A stretch of DNA of 44,677 nucleotides from Blastococcus sp. (lineage in GTDB: Bacteria > Actinomycetota > Actinomycetes > Mycobacteriales > Geodermatophilaceae), in contig JAOPWH010000188.1 of assembly GCA_025965795.1 (NCBI GenBank), positions 1 through 44,677 on the forward strand, written 5' to 3'. The position numbers were made by a program, and so were the translations under genes. Positions 1 through 44,677 of the stretch are shown piece by piece. Below the pieces are notes generated by a model that was given only the letters and a program-made list of their open reading frames with translations, was not told the origin of the DNA and searched no databases. Position 1 is the stretch's first letter; each line of letters opens with the position of its first letter.

Positions 1-500
1 GTGATGACGTCGCGCAGCAATTCGCCGAGTTGGGCACAGCGCCACAGCGGCGGCAATGGTTCGGTGTTGGCGTTCTGGAACACCGGGACCACCGGAATGT
101 CCATCTCCGGCCGGATCAGGGTCAGCGGCGTCATGAAGGCGTGGTCGATCTTGGGATTCGCGGAAAAGGCGAGGTCGAAGCCGGCAGCCACGCCGTCGGA
201 GAGGAGCTGAGCGGCGAAATCGCCGGCCAACGGTAGTTCGGCGCTGGCCACTCCGCCGTCGCCCCAACCAGTGGCCGTGTCCCCGATCCCGATGCAGATC
301 TGGGGAAAGCTGTCGTAGCCGAAGGAGTTCAGATGCTCGCTGCCGATGACGACGAGCACGTCAGGGGTCAACCGGTCCACCTCGGCGCGCACCTGGGCGA
401 AGGCCGCGTGGATCGCGGCGTGGACCTCGTTGCCCGACTCGAACTTCCGGATGATCATCGCAGTGTGGGACGTCGCGTAGGCGCCCACGAGCCGGCCCAT
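1..500 (-). CDS. LigB-family (class III) extradiol ring-cleavage dioxygenase, C-terminal part outside window
   Basis: The first 166 codons, starting at ATG 500-498, read as the N-terminal part of a LigB-family enzyme; the frame stays open to the window edge. Such enzymes cleave catecholic rings next to the hydroxyls using non-heme Fe(II). Visible family marks are a His near residue 12 (ATSH), the GSEHLNSF segment near residue 60 that carries the second His ligand, and a DHAFMTPL segment further on. The layout resembles 2,3-dihydroxyphenylpropionate-type dioxygenases (MhpB-like), but the substrate cannot be read from sequence. Its start overlaps the stop of the upstream alpha/beta hydrolase by one base (TGATG), so the two are co-translated. 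A LigB-type cleavage enzyme beside a C-C hydrolase fits a meta-cleavage module. Family call good; substrate unknown. Confidence 0.82.
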   Translation of the reverse strand, partial: MGRLVGAYATSHTAMIIRKFESGNEVHAAIHAAFAQVRAEVDRLTPDVLVVIGSEHLNSFGYDSFPQICIGIGDTATGWGDGGVASAELPLAGDFAAQLLSDGVAAGFDLAFSANPKIDHAFMTPLTLIRPEMDIPVVPVFQNANTEPLPPLWRCAQLGELLRDVI

Positions 501-1438
501 CAGCCGGCTCCTACGACGACGTCGTCAACCCGGTTCGCTGCGGCCGACAGGAGGAACCCGTTGACGACCGCGTGGAATTCGGCCGGCTTCTCGAATTGTG
601 GCCAGTGGCCGGCGTCCTCCATCAGGTGGAAGGAGGCGCCGGGGATGAGCTGGCTGGCCGCCGACCCGACCGGCCACGGCATGGTCGGGTTCTGCCGCGT
701 CCACAGCACCAGCGTCGGGCAGCTGATCGTCGCCAACCGTTCGGCGGTCAGCATCTCCTCTGGTCGGGCGCGGGAGGTGAATCCGGCGACCAGGTCACTG
801 GCGATCACGGCGAAGTCAGGGTCGGTGTAGATCCGGTAACGCGTCTCCACCAGTTCGTCGGTGACCACGGCCGGGTCGTGCACCAGCCACTCCAGCCGGG
901 TCCGCACCTTCTCCCGGGTAGGGGCATCCAGGGCCTTGCTGGTGGCAGCGGCCACCTGACGGCCGACCTGCTCGGTCAGCGCGGCACCGTCGGCGTCCAG
1001 TTGCAGGCCTGCCCCGGTGACGCTGACGAAGGAGGCCACCCGGTCGGGGTGGTGCACGGCCAGCCACCCGGCCACCCAGCCACCGAGGGACTGCCCCACG
1101 ACATGGGCCCGGGCCGCGCCGATCGCATCGAGGAAATCCAGCACGTGCTCCCCAAGAGCCCGGATCGAGTAGTCGATCCGTGGCTTGTCGGTGAACCCGT
1201 GGCCGAGCATGTCGATCGCGTGCACCCGGAAGTTCCGGCTGAGCCCGGCGACGTTGCGCACCCAGGTCTCGGCGTGGCCACTCACCCCGTGCAGCAGGAC
1301 CAGCGGCTCGCCCTGCCCCGCCTCGACACTTCTCGTGCGGTAGGTGCCGGCCTGGCGGAACCGGACCTCGGTACCCAGCAGATCCACCCAGAACGACTGT
1401 CCCTGCGACGGGGGTGCCTCTACGTCAGCGGTCGTCAC
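500..1438 (-). CDS. Alpha/beta hydrolase, meta-cleavage product (C-C bond) hydrolase type
   Basis: A roughly 312-residue alpha/beta-hydrolase of the MhpC/BphD class, which hydrolyses ring-fission products to 2-hydroxypentadienoate and an acid. Residues counted from the longer ATG frame (1468): oxyanion region LLHGVSGHAETW at 58-69, nucleophile elbow GQSLGG with Ser127, catalytic His288 in DAGHWPQ. The position where relatives usually carry the acid (Asp after the LW strand) reads LWTRQNPT, an Asn260. I chose the GTG at 1438 because an AGGAG sits six bases upstream (1445-1449); the ATG at 1468 has no visible ribosome site. The 3' end overlaps the LigB start, and the 5' side follows the 104-residue RHO companion gene. 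Probably works with the adjacent ring-cleavage enzyme and feeds the hydratase at 12176. Confidence 0.85.
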   Translation of the reverse strand: MTTADVEAPPSQGQSFWVDLLGTEVRFRQAGTYRTRSVEAGQGEPLVLLHGVSGHAETWVRNVAGLSRNFRVHAIDMLGHGFTDKPRIDYSIRALGEHVLDFLDAIGAARAHVVGQSLGGWVAGWLAVHHPDRVASFVSVTGAGLQLDADGAALTEQVGRQVAAATSKALDAPTREKVRTRLEWLVHDPAVVTDELVETRYRIYTDPDFAVIASDLVAGFTSRARPEEMLTAERLATISCPTLVLWTRQNPTMPWPVGSAASQLIPGASFHLMEDAGHWPQFEKPAEFHAVVNGFLLSAAANRVDDVVVGAG

Positions 1439-1489
1439 GTCGCTCTCCTGTCGGTCCCGGCCGTGCATGGCATACCCGGGTGTGGTCGG

Positions 1490-1804
1490 TCACGGCGGTC
1501 CGAAGGGCTCGGTCAGCAGCGATCGGTAGGCGCTCTCCTCGAGCCAGGTGAGGCTCTCCAGCTGGAGGGCGTCGAAGAAGACCTCGCGTCCGGTGCGCAG
1601 GCTTCGGACGGCGAGGCGCAGGTCGTTGCCGTCACGGTCGACGCGGACGCGTACCCGGGCGAACTCGTTGGTGACGGTCAGCTCGCCGTCGGCAGGCCCA
1701 CTACGAAGCCACGAGCCGGGGTCGGGTGCATCGCCTGCAGCGTCGCCGTCTCGGCTGCCGACGATGTCCTGGCCCTGGAGATCAGAAGAAGATGGAGATG
1801 GCAC
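1490..1804 (-). CDS. Small RHO-associated protein of unknown function (104 aa), paralogue of 43242-43556
   Basis: No catalytic motif is recognised. The last 65 residues form a compact, coding-biased domain that begins GELTVTNEFARVRVRV and ends with DALQLESLTWL and a terminal EPFGPP. The same pattern (NEFAEVRVVRVETRNG, LELEALTW, GNPFGP) is seen in the protein at 43242-43556, also 104 residues and also directly downstream of an RHO beta subunit. The start is uncertain: GTG 1804 gives the matching length and overlaps the beta-subunit gene by 23 bases but has no strong ribosome site. The first 35 residues are low-complexity and may not be translated. Likely an accessory or assembly factor, or a small regulatory subunit, of the dioxygenase; this is inference from position only. 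Confidence 0.7.
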   Translation of the reverse strand: MPSPSSSDLQGQDIVGSRDGDAAGDAPDPGSWLRSGPADGELTVTNEFARVRVRVDRDGNDLRLAVRSLRTGREVFFDALQLESLTWLEESAYRSLLTEPFGPP

Positions 1805-2285
1805 GGGGCAGCACCCGGTGATCGAGGAGCACGGTCCGCTCGGCGATCTTCCAGCCCTCGGCAGAGGTGAGGATCCTGTCGCGTCGGGAGCCGACGAAGA
1901 ATTGCTCGGAGTTGGCCCGACGGGACTGGAAGACGATGAAGTTGGACTCGGCCACCAGGTCGTCATCCGGCCCCGGCGTGACGAGCACGTTGCTGATGAA
2001 GCGGCGAGTCCGTGATCGGGGCTGCTCGGAGTGGGCCAGGCCGCCGGCCAGGCGCTCCATCCGCTTGGCCAGGAAGCGGGAGTCCTCCTCCATGAGGGCC
2101 CATTCCCCTGGGACGTGATCGCGCGGTTGCCGCACCTCCCGTGTCTCGGTGATCGGCATCCAGTAGCGGACGTCCGCGGTGAACAGGGCGAGCCACTCGT
2201 CGTAGCGCTGCTCGTCGAGCATTTTGGCCTCGCGGTAGAGGAAGTCCTCGACGTCGCGGCGCAGGTCGGTCAGGTGTGCCGTCAC
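1782..2285 (-). CDS. Aromatic-ring-hydroxylating dioxygenase beta (small) subunit
   Basis: A 167-residue RHO beta subunit of the NTF2-like fold that supports the alpha3beta3 hexamer and carries no metal. Family features are FLYREAKMLDEQRYDEWLAL near the N-terminus, DVRYWMPI, the SRTRRFISNVLV strand, and a C-terminal AERTVLLDHRVLPRAI helix/strand ending in IFF. Length is normal. It starts with a GTG that overlaps the alpha-subunit stop (GTGA, 2285-2282), so the two subunits are translationally coupled and probably made in equal amounts. The 104-residue gene starts inside its 3' end. Confidence 0.93.
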   Translation of the reverse strand: MTAHLTDLRRDVEDFLYREAKMLDEQRYDEWLALFTADVRYWMPITETREVRQPRDHVPGEWALMEEDSRFLAKRMERLAGGLAHSEQPRSRTRRFISNVLVTPGPDDDLVAESNFIVFQSRRANSEQFFVGSRRDRILTSAEGWKIAERTVLLDHRVLPRAISIFF

Positions 2286-3613
2286 TTCTGCTCTCCTGGG
2301 GTGGTCATGAGCTCGAGCCAGTAGCGGTAGAAGTTGCGGTGGTTCTGTTCCGAGAAGTGCGGCCCCAGGCGACCGGGGTAGCCCTCCTCCTGGATCTCGC
2401 CCTCGTGCCCGAGGCCCATGGCGTAGTTGAAGTCCCGGGTCTGGGAGACGAATCCGCGGGCGGACTCGGTGATCTGCTCGAAGTTCTCACCGTCGTCCTG
2501 GCCGAAGATCCCGGCCGCGGCGTTCTCCTGGGACATCTGGGTGCGGGCGAAGTCCTTGATCGACTGGGGCGCACCACTGTCGAAGAACGCCGTCTGCCAG
2601 ACCTCCATCTCCCCGGGCCCCTTCGGGTGCCACTGGAAGAGACCGAAGACGTGGAAGACACCGAACTTGATCCAGGACAGATTGGGGAAGATGTTGCCCT
2701 CCCCCAGGCCATGCATTTCCGCCTGTAACGGTGAGACCCGGGCCTGCAGTCGCTCGCGGACGGCGGCGACGTACTCGATAGCCTCGGGTCCGAGGAACTG
2801 GGCCATACCGACGTCGTTCTGATAGGCCCGGCCGGGCTTGCTGATGTCGCCCATTCCGTGTCCGTGGTCGAAGTTCGCGATGTAGTCGGCGAGCAGGTCG
2901 TAATCGGGGAGGAAGCCGATCTGGAACGCCGACCCGTGGGTGTAGAGCACGTGGTAGTCGTCGCCGGCGAAGTTCTCCGCGGCCAGCTTCCAGTTGGCCT
3001 TGATCCGGAATTTCATCGTCGGGCCGATCACCTCGAGGCCCCCCAGCGGTGCCTCGAATGCCAGGTCCAGGTACCACAGCTGGTCGGCGCCGAGGTAGTC
3101 CACCAGCGGGATCGCGTCCTCGTCCCAGTTGGCGAAGATGAAGCCCTTGTAGATCTCGACCCGTGGCACGGCCTTGAGGCCGAGCCGGGACTTGTCGAGC
3201 TCGCCGTTGTAGACGGTGTCCGCGCGGGGGACGCCGATCAGATCACCGTTGTTGCTGTAGGTCCACCCGTGGTACGGGCAGCGGAAGAACTTCGACGTGC
3301 CCGCGTCGGTCGTGCACACCGCCATACCCCGGTGGGCACAGGAGTTGAGCATCACCCGGATGCCGCCGTCGGCGCCGCGGGTCGCGATCACCGGGTCCTC
3401 GCCCATGAAGTTGGTCAGGTAGTCCCCTGGTGCGCGCAGCTGCGACTCGTGCCCGATGAACAGCCACGTCTTGGTGAAGATCCGGTCCAGTTCGGTGCGG
3501 TAGATCGCCTCGTCGATGAAGACCGTGCGGCTGACGACGCCCTCGTCGGGCTTCACCAGGTCGTGGAGTCCTGCAGCCGCCGCGTCGACGGGGCGTTCGC
3601 TGATGCTCGTCAT
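2282..3613 (-). CDS. Aromatic-ring-hydroxylating dioxygenase alpha (large) subunit
   Basis: A 443-residue Rieske non-heme iron oxygenase alpha subunit; it would add O2 to an aromatic ring to give a cis-dihydrodiol. The Rieske [2Fe-2S] ligands are Cys92, His94, Cys112 and His115. The mononuclear iron site is in NFAGDDYHVLYTH, with Asp218 as bridging residue and His221 and His226 as ligands; the third ligand is in GQDDGEN (Asp373/374). The start is ATG 3613 with GAGAGGA seven bases upstream; a longer frame upstream has no coding character. The FAGDDYH signature is typical of actinobacterial dioxygenases for polycyclic or carboxylated aromatics, but I cannot name the substrate. No ferredoxin or reductase lies in this operon; the only such pair in the window is at 40968-42421. 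Confidence 0.95.
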   Translation of the reverse strand: MTSISERPVDAAAAGLHDLVKPDEGVVSRTVFIDEAIYRTELDRIFTKTWLFIGHESQLRAPGDYLTNFMGEDPVIATRGADGGIRVMLNSCAHRGMAVCTTDAGTSKFFRCPYHGWTYSNNGDLIGVPRADTVYNGELDKSRLGLKAVPRVEIYKGFIFANWDEDAIPLVDYLGADQLWYLDLAFEAPLGGLEVIGPTMKFRIKANWKLAAENFAGDDYHVLYTHGSAFQIGFLPDYDLLADYIANFDHGHGMGDISKPGRAYQNDVGMAQFLGPEAIEYVAAVRERLQARVSPLQAEMHGLGEGNIFPNLSWIKFGVFHVFGLFQWHPKGPGEMEVWQTAFFDSGAPQSIKDFARTQMSQENAAAGIFGQDDGENFEQITESARGFVSQTRDFNYAMGLGHEGEIQEEGYPGRLGPHFSEQNHRNFYRYWLELMTTPGEQK

Positions 3614-3704: not shown

Positions 3705-4778
3705 TCACTGGGCGACCCCGGTGCTGGCCCAGCTCTTCTGGGCCCCGAGGTTGGCCATGCCGGCGGTGTAGAGGGCTCCCTGTGCGTCGAAGGGCAGGTG
3801 CGCCACGCCGGCTCTCTCGTAGACAGGGGTCGCAGCCTCCAGCCGGCTGTAGATCTCCTCCATGTCCGCGGGGAGCTCGTGGTCCTGCCACGTGGCGTAG
3901 TCCCCATAGCCGTGGTCGTAGTTCCAGTCGGGCACGTAGTAGAGGCGCCCGGATGCCCCCGCGCTGTCCTGCGCGGCGAGGAAGAGCGAGATCGGCAGCA
4001 GGTGCTCGGGAATGGCCGGGCGCATGAAGTAGGCGATGCCCATCTCGTTGAAAGCCCGGGCGGTGGCATCGAACCAGGACGCACGCGTGTGTCCGGGCAT
4101 GATCGCGTTCACCGCGATGCCGTCGCTGCGCACCTCCTCGGCGAGGTAGAAGGTGAGCGCCATGACGGCGGCCTTGGTGGCCTGGTAGGGCATCTCCACG
4201 GTCCAGGGGCGCAGCCCGTGGTAGCCGCCACCGGAGGAGACCGGTAGGACGCCGCTGCTGACGACGTTGACGATGCTGCCGCGATGCTGGGCCCGCATCG
4301 GCTCGATGAACCGGCGGATGGCCTTGAGCGTGCCGAAGACGTTGACACCGAACATCACCTCCCAGTCGCGATCGGTGGTGTCCAGGGTGTTCCGGTGTCC
4401 AGTCGGGGCGAAGAGGGTCTCCGACACCAGCGCCGCGTTGTTGACCAGGACGTCGACTGTGCCGAACCGCTCGAGGACGGCGTCCCGGGCGGCGTCCAGC
4501 GCGGTGTCGTCGGTGATGTCCATGTCGACGGCCAGCCCGTTGTCCTCGGACTCCAGATGCTTGCGAAAGTCCTCGGCCTCGTGCCAGGTCAGGTCTGCGG
4601 CGACGACCTTCGCGCCAGCGCGGAGCAGCCCCTCGCACAGGGAGCGGCCGATGCCGCGGGCTCCGCCGGTGACGACCACGACCCGACCCGCCACGTCGCC
4701 TCGCCACTCGCCCAGTGCCCGCTCGACCAGTTGGCGCTGGCGTGCCGAGGCTGCCGCCCCTACACCTGACTCCGACAT
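3705..4778 (-). CDS. Short-chain dehydrogenase/reductase, candidate cis-dihydrodiol dehydrogenase
   Basis: A 357-residue SDR. The NAD(P) glycine motif TGGARGIG is at 37-44, NNAA at 113-116, the catalytic Ser at 174/175, and Tyr198-Lys202 in MPYQATK. It is about 100 residues longer than classical SDRs: a tail after residue 250 rich in aromatic residues (YYVPDWNYDHGYGDYATW) could be an extra substrate or oligomer element. As first gene of the operon ahead of the RHO subunits, its probable role is rearomatising the dihydrodiol to a catechol. ATG 4778 is preceded by TGAGGAGAAC, a strong ribosome site. A 92-base gap separates it from the alpha subunit. Confidence 0.88.
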   Translation of the reverse strand: MSESGVGAAASARQRQLVERALGEWRGDVAGRVVVVTGGARGIGRSLCEGLLRAGAKVVAADLTWHEAEDFRKHLESEDNGLAVDMDITDDTALDAARDAVLERFGTVDVLVNNAALVSETLFAPTGHRNTLDTTDRDWEVMFGVNVFGTLKAIRRFIEPMRAQHRGSIVNVVSSGVLPVSSGGGYHGLRPWTVEMPYQATKAAVMALTFYLAEEVRSDGIAVNAIMPGHTRASWFDATARAFNEMGIAYFMRPAIPEHLLPISLFLAAQDSAGASGRLYYVPDWNYDHGYGDYATWQDHELPADMEEIYSRLEAATPVYERAGVAHLPFDAQGALYTAGMANLGAQKSWASTGVAQ

Positions 4779-40068: not shown

Positions 40069-40857
40069 CTACAACAGGAGGTGGTCCAGTTCGTCCGCGG
40101 CCTCGGTAAGCCGGCCGAGGACCGCCTCCTGGGTGACGTCGGTCATCCGGTTGACCGGGACGGAGACGTTGATCGCCAGGCGGGGCGAGCGCGTCGAGTG
40201 CAGGGCCACAGCCACGGAGCTGACGCCCTCCTCCGCCTCCTCCATGCTGCTGGCGTAGCCGCGGGCCCGGACGTCGGCCAGCGTTGCGAGGAGAGCCGTG
40301 CGCGTCCCGATCGAATGAGGCGTGAGCTGGACCAGATCCTCGTCGGGATAGACCCGGAGCAGCTCGTCCTCGGTGAGCTCGGCCAGCAGCGCCTTTCCCG
40401 TCGACGTGCAGTGGGCCGGCATCGACATCCCGAGTCGTCCGCCGACCCGCAGCGCCCGCGCGCTCTCGAGGGAATCGATGAAGTGCACGCTGCCGCCCTC
40501 CAGCCGGCCCAGGTGAACGGTCTCGCCGAGATCGGTGTTCAGCCGCTCCAGCACCGGGCGGGCCCGCGTCCGTACGTCGAGGCGGCGCAGCACGCCGAAG
40601 GCCAGGCCGTCCAGCGTGGGGCCCGGGACATAGCTGCGCGTGGCTGCGTCCTGCCGGACGAAACCCCGGTACTGCAGCATGGCCAGCAGCCGGTGCGCGG
40701 TGGACGAGGCCACACCGAGATAACGGCTCACGTCCGTCAGTCGCAGCTTCGGCTGCTCCCCCAGCAGGAGGAGGACTCGTAGCGCGTTGTCGACGGACTC
40801 GATCGGGTACTGGGGCGAATCGCCATAGTTGGGCGTCGGCGGAAGAGCTTCGGTCAC
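40069..40857 (-). CDS. IclR-family transcriptional regulator, second copy
   Basis: A 262-residue IclR protein: helix-turn-helix (RLTDVSRYLGVASSTAHRLL), wing (FVRQDAATRSYVPG) and effector domain with MPAHCTSTGKALLAELTEDE and EEAEEGVSSVAVAL. GTG 40857. About 45 bases upstream is an IclR-type symmetric site, TTCC-AC-GGAA (40905-40914). It follows the second dioxygenase operon on the same strand and may regulate it and the transporter. Confidence 0.9.
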   Translation of the reverse strand: MTEALPPTPNYGDSPQYPIESVDNALRVLLLLGEQPKLRLTDVSRYLGVASSTAHRLLAMLQYRGFVRQDAATRSYVPGPTLDGLAFGVLRRLDVRTRARPVLERLNTDLGETVHLGRLEGGSVHFIDSLESARALRVGGRLGMSMPAHCTSTGKALLAELTEDELLRVYPDEDLVQLTPHSIGTRTALLATLADVRARGYASSMEEAEEGVSSVAVALHSTRSPRLAINVSVPVNRMTDVTQEAVLGRLTEAADELDHLLL

Positions 40858-40967: not shown

Positions 40968-42227
40968 TCAGGCACGCGCGCCGGCGACCGGCTCACCTGC
41001 GGAGCGACCGGAAGGAGGCGTCAGCGCCGACACCTTCGCGAGTGCATCATCGAACGGGGCGCCGTCGGTCACCAGCCGCCGGCACTGCACCAGCGCCTTG
41101 GGCCAGTTCACGGTCACCGCCCCACAAAGGCGTCCCGTCTCGTCGGTGTAGAGGACGGCGGCACGCGGGTTCCCTGCTGACAGGCTCCCGACGGTCTCGT
41201 GCCTGGTGCCGTGGTTGGGCCGGCCCACGATCTGGGCCTTCCAGTCGTACTGGTCGCTCCACACGTACTCAACGGGGCGGTAGGCGCGCAGGTCGTCCGG
41301 ATTGGCGATGTTGTGCGCCGCACACGCCCCCTGCTCCACCGCGTTCGTCCAGTGCTCGACGCGGACGTACTCCCGATGACCGGGATGGAACCAGCGGGCG
41401 ACGTCGCCGACCGCGTAGACGTCGGGCGCATCGAGCGCACGGGAGTACTGGTCGCACAGGACACCGTTGTCGATGGGCAGACCCGAGTCGGCCAGCCAGC
41501 CGTCGTTCGGCACCGCACCGATGCCGACGACGACCGTGGCCGCCTGCAGCTGGGTCCCGTCGGTGAGCCGGACGCGGAGGTCGCCGGCCGCTCCCTCGAT
41601 CGCCTCCACGCCGACGCCGAACCGGGTCACGACGCCGTGCCGGTGGTGCAGTTCGGAGAACAGCCGCCCGATCTCCGGGCCGACCACGCGGCCGATCGGC
41701 GTGGGCAGCGGGTCGACCACCGTCACCTCGTGCCCGAGGGCGCGCGCGCTGCCCGCCACCTCGGCCCCGATGAAGCCGCCACCGACCACGACTACGGGAC
41801 CACCATCGCTGAGACGGGCCTGCAGCCGCCGGCTGTCATCCAGCGTGCGGACGACATGCACGCCCGACTCCGGCCGCCAGGGGGACGGTCGCGCCGACGC
41901 CCCGGTCGCGATCACTGCGCTGTCGTACTCGAGGCTGGCGCCGTCGGCCAGCAGGACCTGGCGGGCGGCGATGTCGAGGCGGGTGGCCGGGACACCCAGT
42001 CGCAGTTCGATCGAGTCCTTGTCGGCCTTCTCCTCGGTCAGCAGCAGGACACGGTCGACATCCCACTGACCGGTGAGGAACTGTTTGGACAGCGGAGGCT
42101 TGTCGTAGGGCAGTTGCGCCTCCTCGCCGACGAGGACGACGCGCCCGCCGAACCCCTCGCTGCGCAGCGCCTGGGCTGTCCGGACCCCGCCGATCGAGGA
42201 GCCGATGACGACGACCGTGCGCGTCAT
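40968..42227 (-). CDS. NAD(P)H:ferredoxin reductase of the ring-hydroxylating dioxygenase (BphA4-like)
   Basis: A 419-residue FAD enzyme passing electrons from NADH to the ferredoxin. FAD site VVIGSSIGGVRTAQAL (the middle Gly replaced by Ser), PYDKPPLSKQFLTG, NAD site VVVVGGGFIGAEVA and the second FAD contact VYAVGDVARW. Length is typical. ATG 42227 overlaps the ferredoxin stop (ATGA). This is the only such reductase in the window. Confidence 0.93.
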   Translation of the reverse strand: MTRTVVVIGSSIGGVRTAQALRSEGFGGRVVLVGEEAQLPYDKPPLSKQFLTGQWDVDRVLLLTEEKADKDSIELRLGVPATRLDIAARQVLLADGASLEYDSAVIATGASARPSPWRPESGVHVVRTLDDSRRLQARLSDGGPVVVVGGGFIGAEVAGSARALGHEVTVVDPLPTPIGRVVGPEIGRLFSELHHRHGVVTRFGVGVEAIEGAAGDLRVRLTDGTQLQAATVVVGIGAVPNDGWLADSGLPIDNGVLCDQYSRALDAPDVYAVGDVARWFHPGHREYVRVEHWTNAVEQGACAAHNIANPDDLRAYRPVEYVWSDQYDWKAQIVGRPNHGTRHETVGSLSAGNPRAAVLYTDETGRLCGAVTVNWPKALVQCRRLVTDGAPFDDALAKVSALTPPSGRSAGEPVAGARA

Positions 42228-42421
42228 GCGTCCTCGATGGTCAGGGCACTGACCGGGCAGCTACGGGCAGCCTCCTCGATGCGCGGCCGCTCCTCGTCGG
42301 AGATCTCCGCCTTCAGCAGCACGACGACACCGTCGTCGTCGATGTCGTACACCTCAGGGGCTGCGTCGACGCAGTTCGCGTAGCCCTGGCACGCCTCGAA
42401 ATTGGCCTTCAGTACCGGCAC
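42224..42421 (-). CDS. Small ferredoxin ([3Fe-4S] or [4Fe-4S]) of the dioxygenase system
   Basis: A 65-residue ferredoxin with FEACQGYANCVDAAPEV and a terminal ARSCPVSAL: Cys-x5-Cys ... Cys-Pro, the pattern of single-cluster ferredoxins in which one ligand position is Tyr. It would shuttle electrons from the reductase to the Rieske centre. Dioxygenases with this ferredoxin type, instead of a Rieske ferredoxin, are known from actinobacterial PAH systems (PhdC). GTG 42421 follows GGGAG six bases upstream. Confidence 0.9.
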   Translation of the reverse strand: MPVLKANFEACQGYANCVDAAPEVYDIDDDGVVVLLKAEISDEERPRIEEAARSCPVSALTIEDA

Positions 42422-42441: not shown

Positions 42442-43245
42442 TCAGGATCGTTTCTTGGCGGAGGAGATGCCTGCTCCGCCGTCGGGATGGACCGCCGTGC
42501 CGGTGATGCCGCGCGACCGCTGCGACGCCAGGAATACGTAGCTCCACGCCATGTCCTCGGCCGACAGAGCCACTTGGAGGGGGACCCGGGCGGCCATCTC
42601 GGCGGCACGGTTGGGCGAGTCGCCCAGGCTGCGGTCGGCCAGGCCGAGACTCGGCAGGCCGCGCAGATCGGTGTTGAGCGTGCCGCCCGGCGCGACCCCG
42701 TTGACGCGGATCTCCGGAGCCAGGTCGTGGGCGAGCGCGGTCACCAGGCCGCGAACGGCGAACTTGGAGGCCAGGTACAGCACTCCCCCACGCCCGGGGT
42801 AGTAGCCCGACGTCGACTCCGTCAGGACGACGGAGCCGCCGCCCGACTCCTTCAGTGCCGGCAACGCGGCCTTCACCGAGTGCAGCAGGGACTTCACGTT
42901 CGTGGAGAACATCTCGTCGAAGGCGGTGTCGAGCAGGTCGGCATCGAGGTCCTCGATGCTGCGGTAGTAGTCGAAGATCCCGACGCAGCTCACGAGGACG
43001 TCCAGCCCGCCGAAGGCCTCGACCGCGGCGGCCACCGCCTCTTCGTTGGCGGCACGGCTCGTCGCATCCCCGACCGTCACCGGGACCTGGGGCAGGGCCT
43101 CGGAGAGCGCAGTGCACTTGCCGGCGTCCTTCTCCAGCACCGCCACCTGCGCCCCCTCGGCGAGGAACACGTCGACGACGGCGCGTCCAATGCCCGAGCC
43201 GGCGCCGACGACCAGCGCCCGGCGCCCGCTCAGCCAGCCGCTCAC
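42442..43245 (-). CDS. cis-2,3-dihydrodiol 2,3-dehydrogenase (BphB-like SDR)
   Basis: A 267-residue SDR: ALVVGAGSGIGRAVVDVFLA (cofactor motif), VSCVGIFDYY where other SDRs have NNAG, VLTESTSGYYPG with the catalytic Ser, and YLASKFAVRGL with Tyr and Lys. The GI(F/W)DY segment and YLASK(H/F)A helix are typical of biphenyl/toluene dihydrodiol dehydrogenases. GTG 43245 overlaps the stop of the 104-residue gene (GTGA). It should oxidise the product of the neighbouring dioxygenase. Confidence 0.9.
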   Translation of the reverse strand: MSGWLSGRRALVVGAGSGIGRAVVDVFLAEGAQVAVLEKDAGKCTALSEALPQVPVTVGDATSRAANEEAVAAAVEAFGGLDVLVSCVGIFDYYRSIEDLDADLLDTAFDEMFSTNVKSLLHSVKAALPALKESGGGSVVLTESTSGYYPGRGGVLYLASKFAVRGLVTALAHDLAPEIRVNGVAPGGTLNTDLRGLPSLGLADRSLGDSPNRAAEMAARVPLQVALSAEDMAWSYVFLASQRSRGITGTAVHPDGGAGISSAKKRS

Positions 43246-43556
43246 GAGCCTTCCTCGTCCTCCGGCACCAGCGGGCCGAAAGGATTCCCCACCATCGCGG
43301 AGAAGGTGGCCGTGTTCTGCCAGGTGAGGGCCTCGAGCTCGAGCGGGCACAGGGCCACCCACTGGCCGGACTTGGGCGACTCGATCAGCAGCCGCGAGCC
43401 GTTGCGGGTCTCGACCCGGACGACGCGCACCTCGGCGAACTCGTTGCCGATCGAGAGGGGCGCGCCCGTGGTGTGCTCGAGCAGGCCGGCCCGCTCCGCG
43501 GCGGCACGCTGCGCGGCTCGCGCGTCGGCGTCCTCACCCTCCCAGCCGATGGTCAT
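43242..43556 (-). CDS. Small RHO-associated protein of unknown function (104 aa), paralogue of 1490-1804
   Basis: A 104-residue protein with an Ala/Glu-rich N-terminus and a strand-rich core (LSIGNEFAEVRVVRVETRNG, CPLELEALTW). ATG 43556 has GGAGGG upstream. It sits directly after the beta subunit and before the dihydrodiol dehydrogenase; its paralogue occupies the same place in the left-hand operon. No cysteine cluster or catalytic motif is visible. Probably an accessory factor of the dioxygenase; function unknown. Confidence 0.82.
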   Translation of the reverse strand: MTIGWEGEDADARAAQRAAAERAGLLEHTTGAPLSIGNEFAEVRVVRVETRNGSRLLIESPKSGQWVALCPLELEALTWQNTATFSAMVGNPFGPLVPEDEEGS

Positions 43557-43581: not shown

Positions 43582-44214
43582 TCACAGGAAGATCGCCAGG
43601 TTCTGCATGCGGATCACCGCGTCGTCCACCATGATCGTCCGCCGGGCCAGCTTCCAGCCCTCCGGGGTCCGGCGCAGCAGGTCCTCACGACCGGCCGACA
43701 CGAACGCCCCTTCCCGCACGTCGCCGCGGCTGCGGAACAGCAAGGTCCCGGAGTCCACCACGAGGTGGTCGGCGTCCTCCGTGGCGAACGTCCGCACGTT
43801 GCTCAGGTGATGCCGCAGCCGCGACGGCGGATCCTCCGTCCAGGCGTGCTCGGTCATGAACCGCGCCACGCGCCGGGACAGCGAGTACTTGTCCTCGTCG
43901 AAGTGGGCCATTCCGGGCGACGTGTCGTACCCCGCCCCGAGCGCCGTGGTCACCCGCACCGGCATCAAGTAGTGGATGTCCTCGGTGAGCAGCTGAAGCC
44001 ACTCCTCGTAGGCCTGAGCGTCGAGCAGCCAGGCCTCGTCGACCAGCCACTGGTGGGCGGTCAGGTGGCGCTCGTCGTTGAACGGGAGCGTCCTGCCGAC
44101 GCGCAGCTGCCGTGGTGCGTTCTTTCCCAGGGCCGAGCGCTCCGAGTGCAGCTGCACGGGGGTGACGTCGCGGGCCGCCGGCGAGCTGACCGGGGTCTGC
44201 GGGATGGCGGTCAC
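43582..44214 (-). CDS. Aromatic-ring-hydroxylating dioxygenase beta subunit (BphE/TodC2-like)
   Basis: A 210-residue RHO beta subunit with an N-terminal extension of about 45 residues. FLYREA of other members is replaced by WLVDEAWLLDAQAYEEWLQL; IHYLMPVRV, SRLRHHLSNVRTF and the C-terminal RTIMVDDAVIRMQNLAIFL are typical of the biphenyl/toluene group. GTG 44214 overlaps the alpha-subunit stop (GTGA). Confidence 0.93.
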   Translation of the reverse strand: MTAIPQTPVSSPAARDVTPVQLHSERSALGKNAPRQLRVGRTLPFNDERHLTAHQWLVDEAWLLDAQAYEEWLQLLTEDIHYLMPVRVTTALGAGYDTSPGMAHFDEDKYSLSRRVARFMTEHAWTEDPPSRLRHHLSNVRTFATEDADHLVVDSGTLLFRSRGDVREGAFVSAGREDLLRRTPEGWKLARRTIMVDDAVIRMQNLAIFL

Positions 44215-44677
44215 GACTGAGCCCCGAGCTGGTCGGCGGGCTTCGGAGCCGCGGCACGTCCGCTGGTGTCGGCTCCCTGCTGGCCGAGCTCGACCTGCCG
44301 GCCACCGCCGACCTCGAGCGTCGAGGCGGCCTGCATCGGCGCTTCGATGTCATCGGCCCAGCGGTTGAGCAACTCGCGCTGGTTGTACTCGCCGTAGCCG
44401 GTGCGCGCGACGCCGGGGCCGTGGAACTGCTCGCTGGTGAGCGCCGGGACGACCTCGGTGCCGTTCTCGAGCAGCCCCATCCGGCTGTTCAGGAGGAGGC
44501 GCCTGGCCATGGAGCCCGCTGCGGTGTTGGTGAGGGAGACCCAGTTCTCGACGTCGTCCTGCTCGAACATCCCGGTCGAGCCGAAGCACATCAGGTAGGC
44601 CTTGTACGACAGGGCCTTGAACTCCTCGGGCGCCTCCGCGTCGACGGCGAACCACGAGAGCACCTCGGTCTCGTCCT
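44211..44677 (-). CDS. Aromatic-ring-hydroxylating dioxygenase alpha subunit, C-terminal part only (BphA/TodC1-like)
   Basis: The last 154 residues of an RHO alpha subunit; the Rieske domain and the His ligands lie outside the window. GMFEQDDVENWVSL contains the carboxylate ligand of the catalytic iron, in the form found in biphenyl/toluene dioxygenases. The tail (LEVGGGRQVELGQQGAD and onward) is longer than usual and looks disordered. Stop overlaps the beta-subunit GTG. Confidence 0.88.
   Translation of the reverse strand, partial: DETEVLSWFAVDAEAPEEFKALSYKAYLMCFGSTGMFEQDDVENWVSLTNTAAGSMARRLLLNSRMGLLENGTEVVPALTSEQFHGPGVARTGYGEYNQRELLNRWADDIEAPMQAASTLEVGGGRQVELGQQGADTSGRAAAPKPADQLGAQS

Follow-up and report, generated by a model that had tools for sequence, protein, structure and literature searches.

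Rieske oxygenase systems are usually described as an oxygenase together with its electron carriers. The window, i.e., the whole stretch of 44,677 nucleotides analyzed here, contains two oxygenase (RHO) operons, both on the minus strand, each of which holds one further small gene, and the question raised by this locus is what the encoded protein contributes. In the following, X denotes the small protein family that contains both window copies (the PhtU family). Our preferred answer, to which we assign a little less than an even chance, is that X is a dispensable accessory protein that acts on the oxygenase, via coupling or assembly.

Two small genes behind two different oxygenases

In the left operon, an SDR dehydrogenase (3705..4778, assigned by sequence and by synteny with Rhodococcus sp. 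p52) is followed by the RHO alpha subunit (2282..3613, 93% identical to the alpha subunit encoded on p52 pDF02), the beta subunit (1782..2285; PF00866, E 1.1e-36), the left copy of X (1490..1804, 104 aa, supported by BLASTP, the p52 homologue and an AF2 model), an alpha/beta hydrolase downstream of X (500..1468, again by sequence and synteny with p52) and an extradiol dioxygenase (3..500, assigned by sequence) that is truncated at the contig end. The same gene order is present on pDF02, where the small ORF after the beta gene is recorded as 'hypothetical protein'. The last 127 nt of another stretch of the same genome (contig C229, locus L112) are identical to positions 1-127 of the window, which likely represents an assembly overlap. 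The left operon continues on C229; as this contig encodes a 3Fe-4S-type ferredoxin, both window operons have one.

The right, phthalate-type operon starts with the C-terminal 154 aa of an RHO alpha subunit (44211..44675), the remainder being cut off by the contig end, and continues with the beta subunit (43582..44214; PF00866, E 1.3e-42), the right copy of X at the phtU position (43242..43556, 104 aa; BLASTP, AF2 model), an SDR dehydrogenase (42442..43245, with a chosen GTG start that overlaps the X stop by 4 nt), a 3Fe-4S-type ferredoxin (42224..42421, CX5C...CP, start also chosen), an FAD/NAD-dependent ferredoxin reductase (40968..42227) and an IclR-type regulator (40069..40857), the latter two being read from the sequence.

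In agreement with the earlier sequence-only reading of this DNA, the two small ORFs proved to be real and homologous (24/62 identical positions, E 6e-14, BLASTP), and both lie directly after the beta gene of two different RHOs. With the right copy as query, matches in the window's own genome were confined to the two places in the window (E<=0.001; assembly 88% complete). The left copy has a GTG start inside the beta gene with an overlap of 23 nt, as annotated likewise for the Rhodococcus p52 homologue, and the right copy has an ATG 25 nt past the beta stop that is preceded by a GGAGGGGAGG-like ribosome site. For left X vs. the p52 homologue dN/dS was 0.20 (overlap with beta excluded), for right X it was 0.15 vs. 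another genome and 0.11 vs. A. keyseri, values indicating that both window copies are under purifying selection.

The core of X reads NEFAxVxV..V.TRNG.RL.I.SP..G....LDPLELEALTWQ...P.GP, and nine positions are invariant in an alignment of 59 sequences. Of the shared motifs proposed earlier, the second one needs correction to L(E/Q)LE(A/S)LTW, the left copy having LQLESLTW. Equal length, 104 aa, is true of both copies but looks coincidental, with relatives ranging from ~66 to >140 residues (starts chosen by the analyst) and a variable N-terminus. The distance of 42 kb between the copies applies to the window, at opposite ends of whose 44.7-kb contig they are located, but elsewhere the spacing differs: the same two operons occur in Rhodococcus p52 with X genes ~8 kb apart, and a further genome (G550:C138) has two X matches at a distance of 8 kb. 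Rearrangement or a circular element may possibly account for this difference.

Distribution, gene neighborhood and recorded names of X

Profile searches for X and PF00866 were performed in a sample of 296 genomes of the phylum that had been drawn without regard to gene neighbors and included the window. The X profile matched at 34 places in 24 genomes and PF00866 in 41 genomes; 49 of the 68 PF00866 places (39.9 bits or more) entered the count, 19 weaker or short ones being omitted. Of the 34 X domains, 29 immediately follow an RHO beta gene on the same strand; they comprise 25 genes, two of them from the window, and 4 further domains that are the second ones in fused genes. Three further domains are located 0.9-3.5 kb from an RHO beta gene, one of them divergently, and the two remaining matches are very weak (20-22 bits) and have no RHO beta gene near. 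In total, 32 of 34 domains have an RHO beta gene next to them or close by, and the family is not one found mostly away from RHO genes.

Seen from the oxygenase, 25 of the 49 beta genes in the phylum sample are accompanied by X, and a conserved extra protein at this frequency would change the reconstitution of such systems for bioremediation and biocatalysis; the 24 beta genes without adjacent X were counted against the accessory reading. When the window copies are left out, 27/32 X domains are adjacent and 23/47 beta genes have X. Within the window's family, an X match was obtained for 24 of 112 genomes.

A wider scan of contigs covered the best 80 of 218 relatives at 79 loci in a single motif scan. 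The conservation of place that had been postulated from the two window copies was apparent here as well, 74 of these 80 X domains being adjacent to beta, 4 nearby, i.e., with a beta gene within the examined stretch at <=3.5 kb, which need not mean one operon, and 2 at contig ends. The hosts include Actinomycetota, Deinococcota, Bacillota, Chloroflexota, Acidobacteriota and Thermomicrobiota and, among Archaea, a haloarchaeon and two Nitrososphaerota MAGs, in one of which X sits on a contig of only 4 kb that shows no RHO. No X from Proteobacteria was found among the rows listed and in partial tallies. Fused double-X proteins follow beta in L178, L179, L181, L209 and L229 (Natrinema, haloarchaeon). 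Interpretation of X as a chance ORF is ruled out by dN/dS, wide distribution and conserved neighborhood.

On annotated plasmid stretches, 11 of 14 X genes directly follow beta and three open the gene row. The order X-thiolase-OB-alpha-beta occurs in L230, L231 and L233, where X was confirmed by its profile at 47-65 bits; these rows stem from Rhodococcus and Streptomyces plasmids, and their RHO context is rich in CoA-type genes. Other orders are beta-alpha-X (L055) and X-one ORF-alpha-beta (L060). X could in principle act as a scaffold, holding the oxygenase and the enzyme that follows it, a dihydrodiol dehydrogenase or hydrolase, together and thereby channeling unstable diols. Such a role would agree with the frequent location of X between oxygenase genes and an SDR-type dehydrogenase, e.g., in the right operon of the window, and a fused double X could bridge two partners, but the gene after X differs between clusters (ferredoxin, monooxygenase, hydrolase, enoyl-CoA hydratase) and the constant neighbor is the oxygenase, so that we regard a scaffold as distinctly unlikely.

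With regard to existing names, X gave no significant match in Pfam or NCBIfam (best Pfam hit CsrA, E 0.014, in 5/59 members), and a sequence search of the PDB yielded no significant match and no chain at E<=10. The description of the family as unnamed therefore holds for Pfam and NCBIfam, but the copy in the phthalate operon matches phtU by position. In the pertinent passages of three papers (PMC10134610, PMC10434107, PMC4964388) phtU is described as an ORF that follows phtAb and has no known function; in the order phtBAaAbUAcAdCR given for these clusters, the ferredoxin gene comes next. Right X shares the phtU place, being the ORF immediately after phtAb in a phthalate 3,4-dioxygenase operon; left X belongs to a different operon. 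Right X most resembles ORFs that neighbor RHOs on plasmids of Pseudarthrobacter and Arthrobacter, including the A. keyseri 12B cluster that is listed as phthalate dioxygenase in the relevant part of PMC2358900. The A. keyseri ORF at the phtU place is 71% identical to right X, and we equate X with PhtU on the basis of position. One of the three papers states, in the passage concerned, that the A. keyseri phthalate cluster differs by being without phtU; contrary to that statement, A. keyseri pRE1 has X at the phtU position (L023 4001-4339).

Given phtU, the X gene is not wholly new. The passages cited place phtU in phthalate clusters, whereas X also occurs beside many other RHOs, including those of Archaea, and no description of the wide distribution, the fused double forms or a weakly PC4/PUR-like predicted fold was found in the open-access literature searched. 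In records from Thermus and R. opacus (L024 4998-5252; L028 4965-5237), X carries the name 'dihydrodiol dehydrogenase', likely a misannotation of proteins of 84 and 90 aa, as no dehydrogenase domain was found in the family; X was rejected as a dehydrogenase. Several X clusters hold enzymes named for poorly soluble substrates. They would suit a protein that binds substrate or product and serves the delivery, sensing or solubility of aromatics; this is nevertheless very unlikely, as X is also present in phthalate clusters and in clusters rich in CoA-type genes.

Oxygenases and electron donors beside X

A tree (FastTree) was derived for 107 alpha subunits, i.e., 99 rows kept of 124 after removal of near copies, together with 8 references from plasmids; of 137 beta loci, 13 had been dropped because they offered no alpha subunit of 300 residues, and long branches were flagged. 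The X label is clustered on this tree, in which many rows were picked for having X (0/500 shuffles as low), and the label requires at least 6 changes among alpha subunits that are deeply different. The main clade of 77 rows has X adjacent in 68 cases, near in 6 and lacking in 2, plus Natrinema, which is unlabelled and has a double X. The two main-clade loci without X in the examined stretch were likewise counted against an accessory protein. The left window oxygenase is among other X-bearing groups that fall outside the main clade. In a hand count of rows from the phylum sample, X was adjacent in 13 main-clade rows, near in 2 and lacking in 2; the corresponding figures outside the main clade were 8, 1 and 11. 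No X was present in the stretches examined for benzoate-type, biphenyl-type and proteobacterial references.

Electron donor genes were searched within 5 kb (phmmer, ten seeds, E<=1e-5), a procedure that misses remote forms and cut genes. Among 79 non-redundant loci with X, a 3Fe-4S-type ferredoxin was found in 27 and none of the sought types in 52; one of the seven 'near' loci has a 3Fe-4S type and one (L060) a Rieske type, and the 13 loci without X comprise two with a BenC-type reductase, one with a 3Fe-4S type and 10 with no recognized donor. Fisher tests of X vs. donor type gave p 0.02 without the X-less references and 3e-5 with them, figures that are not true probabilities, the rows being related, and the contrast including the references is biased as these were chosen by name; the link of X to donor type is weak. 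As described in the part of PMC2358900 devoted to them, type V RHOs often have their carriers encoded apart, and much of the donor pattern at X loci appears to fit this type.

The X-containing cluster of R. opacus 3D has a rubredoxin gene at 4.4 kb from beta, which the donor search missed because the gene was truncated at the locus boundary. A possible counterpart of X is NidF of Rhodococcus opacus TKN14. According to a citing passage in PMC5209329, an RHO of this strain was reported to depend crucially on a 'hypothetical protein', together with rubredoxin, for the oxidation of o-xylene.

Predicted fold and candidate roles of X

AF2 predicted an N-terminal helix, four strands and helices for the right copy (mean pLDDT 87.6) and, after ~40 poorly predicted residues, four strands and two helices for the left copy (mean pLDDT 79.2). 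In comparisons with VIA-align, the top 8 rows for the left model were all PC4/Sub1/Pur-alpha (Z 5.8-5.3; next row 4.5), and for the right model Pur-alpha reached Z 5.1 and PC4 4.3, the latter equalling the unrelated YpmB (4.3); all these values are below the mark of 8, in the noise range of the tool, and may reflect merely a common arrangement. Foldseek vs. PDB gave no match at E<=0.001. The models are suggestive of a weakly PC4/PUR-like fold, a four-stranded sheet plus helices. A possible likeness to PC4/Sub1 and Pur-alpha would consist in the predicted four strands and helix (Z 4 to 6) and, for Pur-alpha, in the presence of two repeats per chain in some X proteins; on the other hand, X differs from PC4 and Pur-alpha in being acidic, without sequence signal and in an enzymatic operon context. 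Membership in the PC4/Sub1 family by sequence was rejected, with PF02229 absent from the 8 families listed for the 59 X members (Pfam, E<=1) and an hhalign probability of 0.2% for X vs. 10 bacterial PC4 proteins.

Such a fold would be compatible with a nucleic-acid-binding regulator of the own operon, a proposal to which we give a slim chance. Apart from PC4/Sub1 and Pur-alpha leading for the left model and Pur-alpha, with PC4 behind, for the right one, four basic positions, each shared by 55 to 59 of the 59 members, would speak for it. X is, however, acidic over its whole length in 59/59 members and in the core in 56/59, the fold scores remain under 6 and unaccompanied by any PC4 sequence signal, and the right operon already has its IclR-type regulator.

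No Cys or His is invariant among the 59 members, one column being Cys in 28/59 and Asp in 31; together with the acidic character this speaks against a role as redox carrier and, with less weight, against the binding of nucleic acids. An electron carrier or RHO ferredoxin with cluster-binding Cys or His was accordingly rejected for X, and neither a Rieske or catalytic domain nor a Ring_hydroxyl_B domain was matched in Pfam or NCBIfam. A fixed subunit was also rejected: PDB entries 2b1x (alpha 1042 bits to the alpha subunit beside X in R. opacus 3D) and 9jp5 (alpha 826 bits to the A. keyseri alpha subunit) are solved relatives, with matching beta chains in both cases, and no PDB chain matches X, not every chain of those two entries having been listed.

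According to PMC11176777, NarAaAb and NarA2B2 of Hydrogenibacillus, which its authors place in type V, enabled E. coli to degrade PAHs when combined with PhdCD or PhtAcAd. In a related species, H. schlegelii, X is located 1 kb after beta (L036). The biphenyl dioxygenase of JF8, the cluster of which contains X, is cited as working with host electron carriers, in a construct that may have included X. The nahAcAd of Geobacillus JF8, reported to be inactive in E. coli for causes that its authors see elsewhere, was not counted as support for X. Since oxygenases called type V act in E. coli apparently without X, i.e., from alpha, beta, ferredoxin and reductase, X is no obligate subunit, and the term 'component' chosen in the sequence-only reading goes too far, also in view of the PDB result; basic catalysis can probably proceed without X. 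The same observation, as well as the fact that X is unnamed or misnamed in records, could be taken to mean that it is a non-functional hitchhiker of the operons, but dN/dS of 0.11-0.20, the invariant positions and its retention in Bacteria, Archaea and rearranged operons render this exceedingly improbable.

We return to the dispensable accessory protein, for which conserved place, selection and persistence through rearrangement tie the role to the oxygenase. The participation in coupling or assembly, the binding to the oxygenase and the dimeric state are inferred. X would be made together with alpha and beta in a broad class of two-subunit Rieske oxygenases that includes users of 3Fe-4S ferredoxins or of shared, unlinked donors. 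As a small acidic protein with a four-stranded sheet and helices, probably dimeric and in some lineages fused from two copies, it would bind the alpha-beta oxygenase transiently and not as a fixed subunit, and would help the oxygenase either to assemble or to couple productively to its electron donor, itself carrying neither electrons nor metal. X might then explain the weak activity of some Rieske oxygenases in foreign hosts.

MmoB, DmpM and TmoD are small, cofactor-free, operon-encoded proteins that bind diiron monooxygenases and tune electron transfer. They work in a way that may be analogous to that of X, albeit with another oxygenase class; none of them appeared among the fold matches listed for X, though they may still be related to it. 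By this analogy, X might be the effector (coupling) protein of Rieske oxygenases, a counterpart of MmoB and TmoD that would dock as a PC4/PUR-fold dimer on alpha-beta and control how electrons enter from 3Fe-4S or shared donors. It would do so in roughly half of the two-subunit RHOs in the phylum sample, as well as in thermophiles and Archaea, a specific proposal that we consider speculative and on balance unlikely. A hint at a working dimer is provided by the fused double-X proteins.
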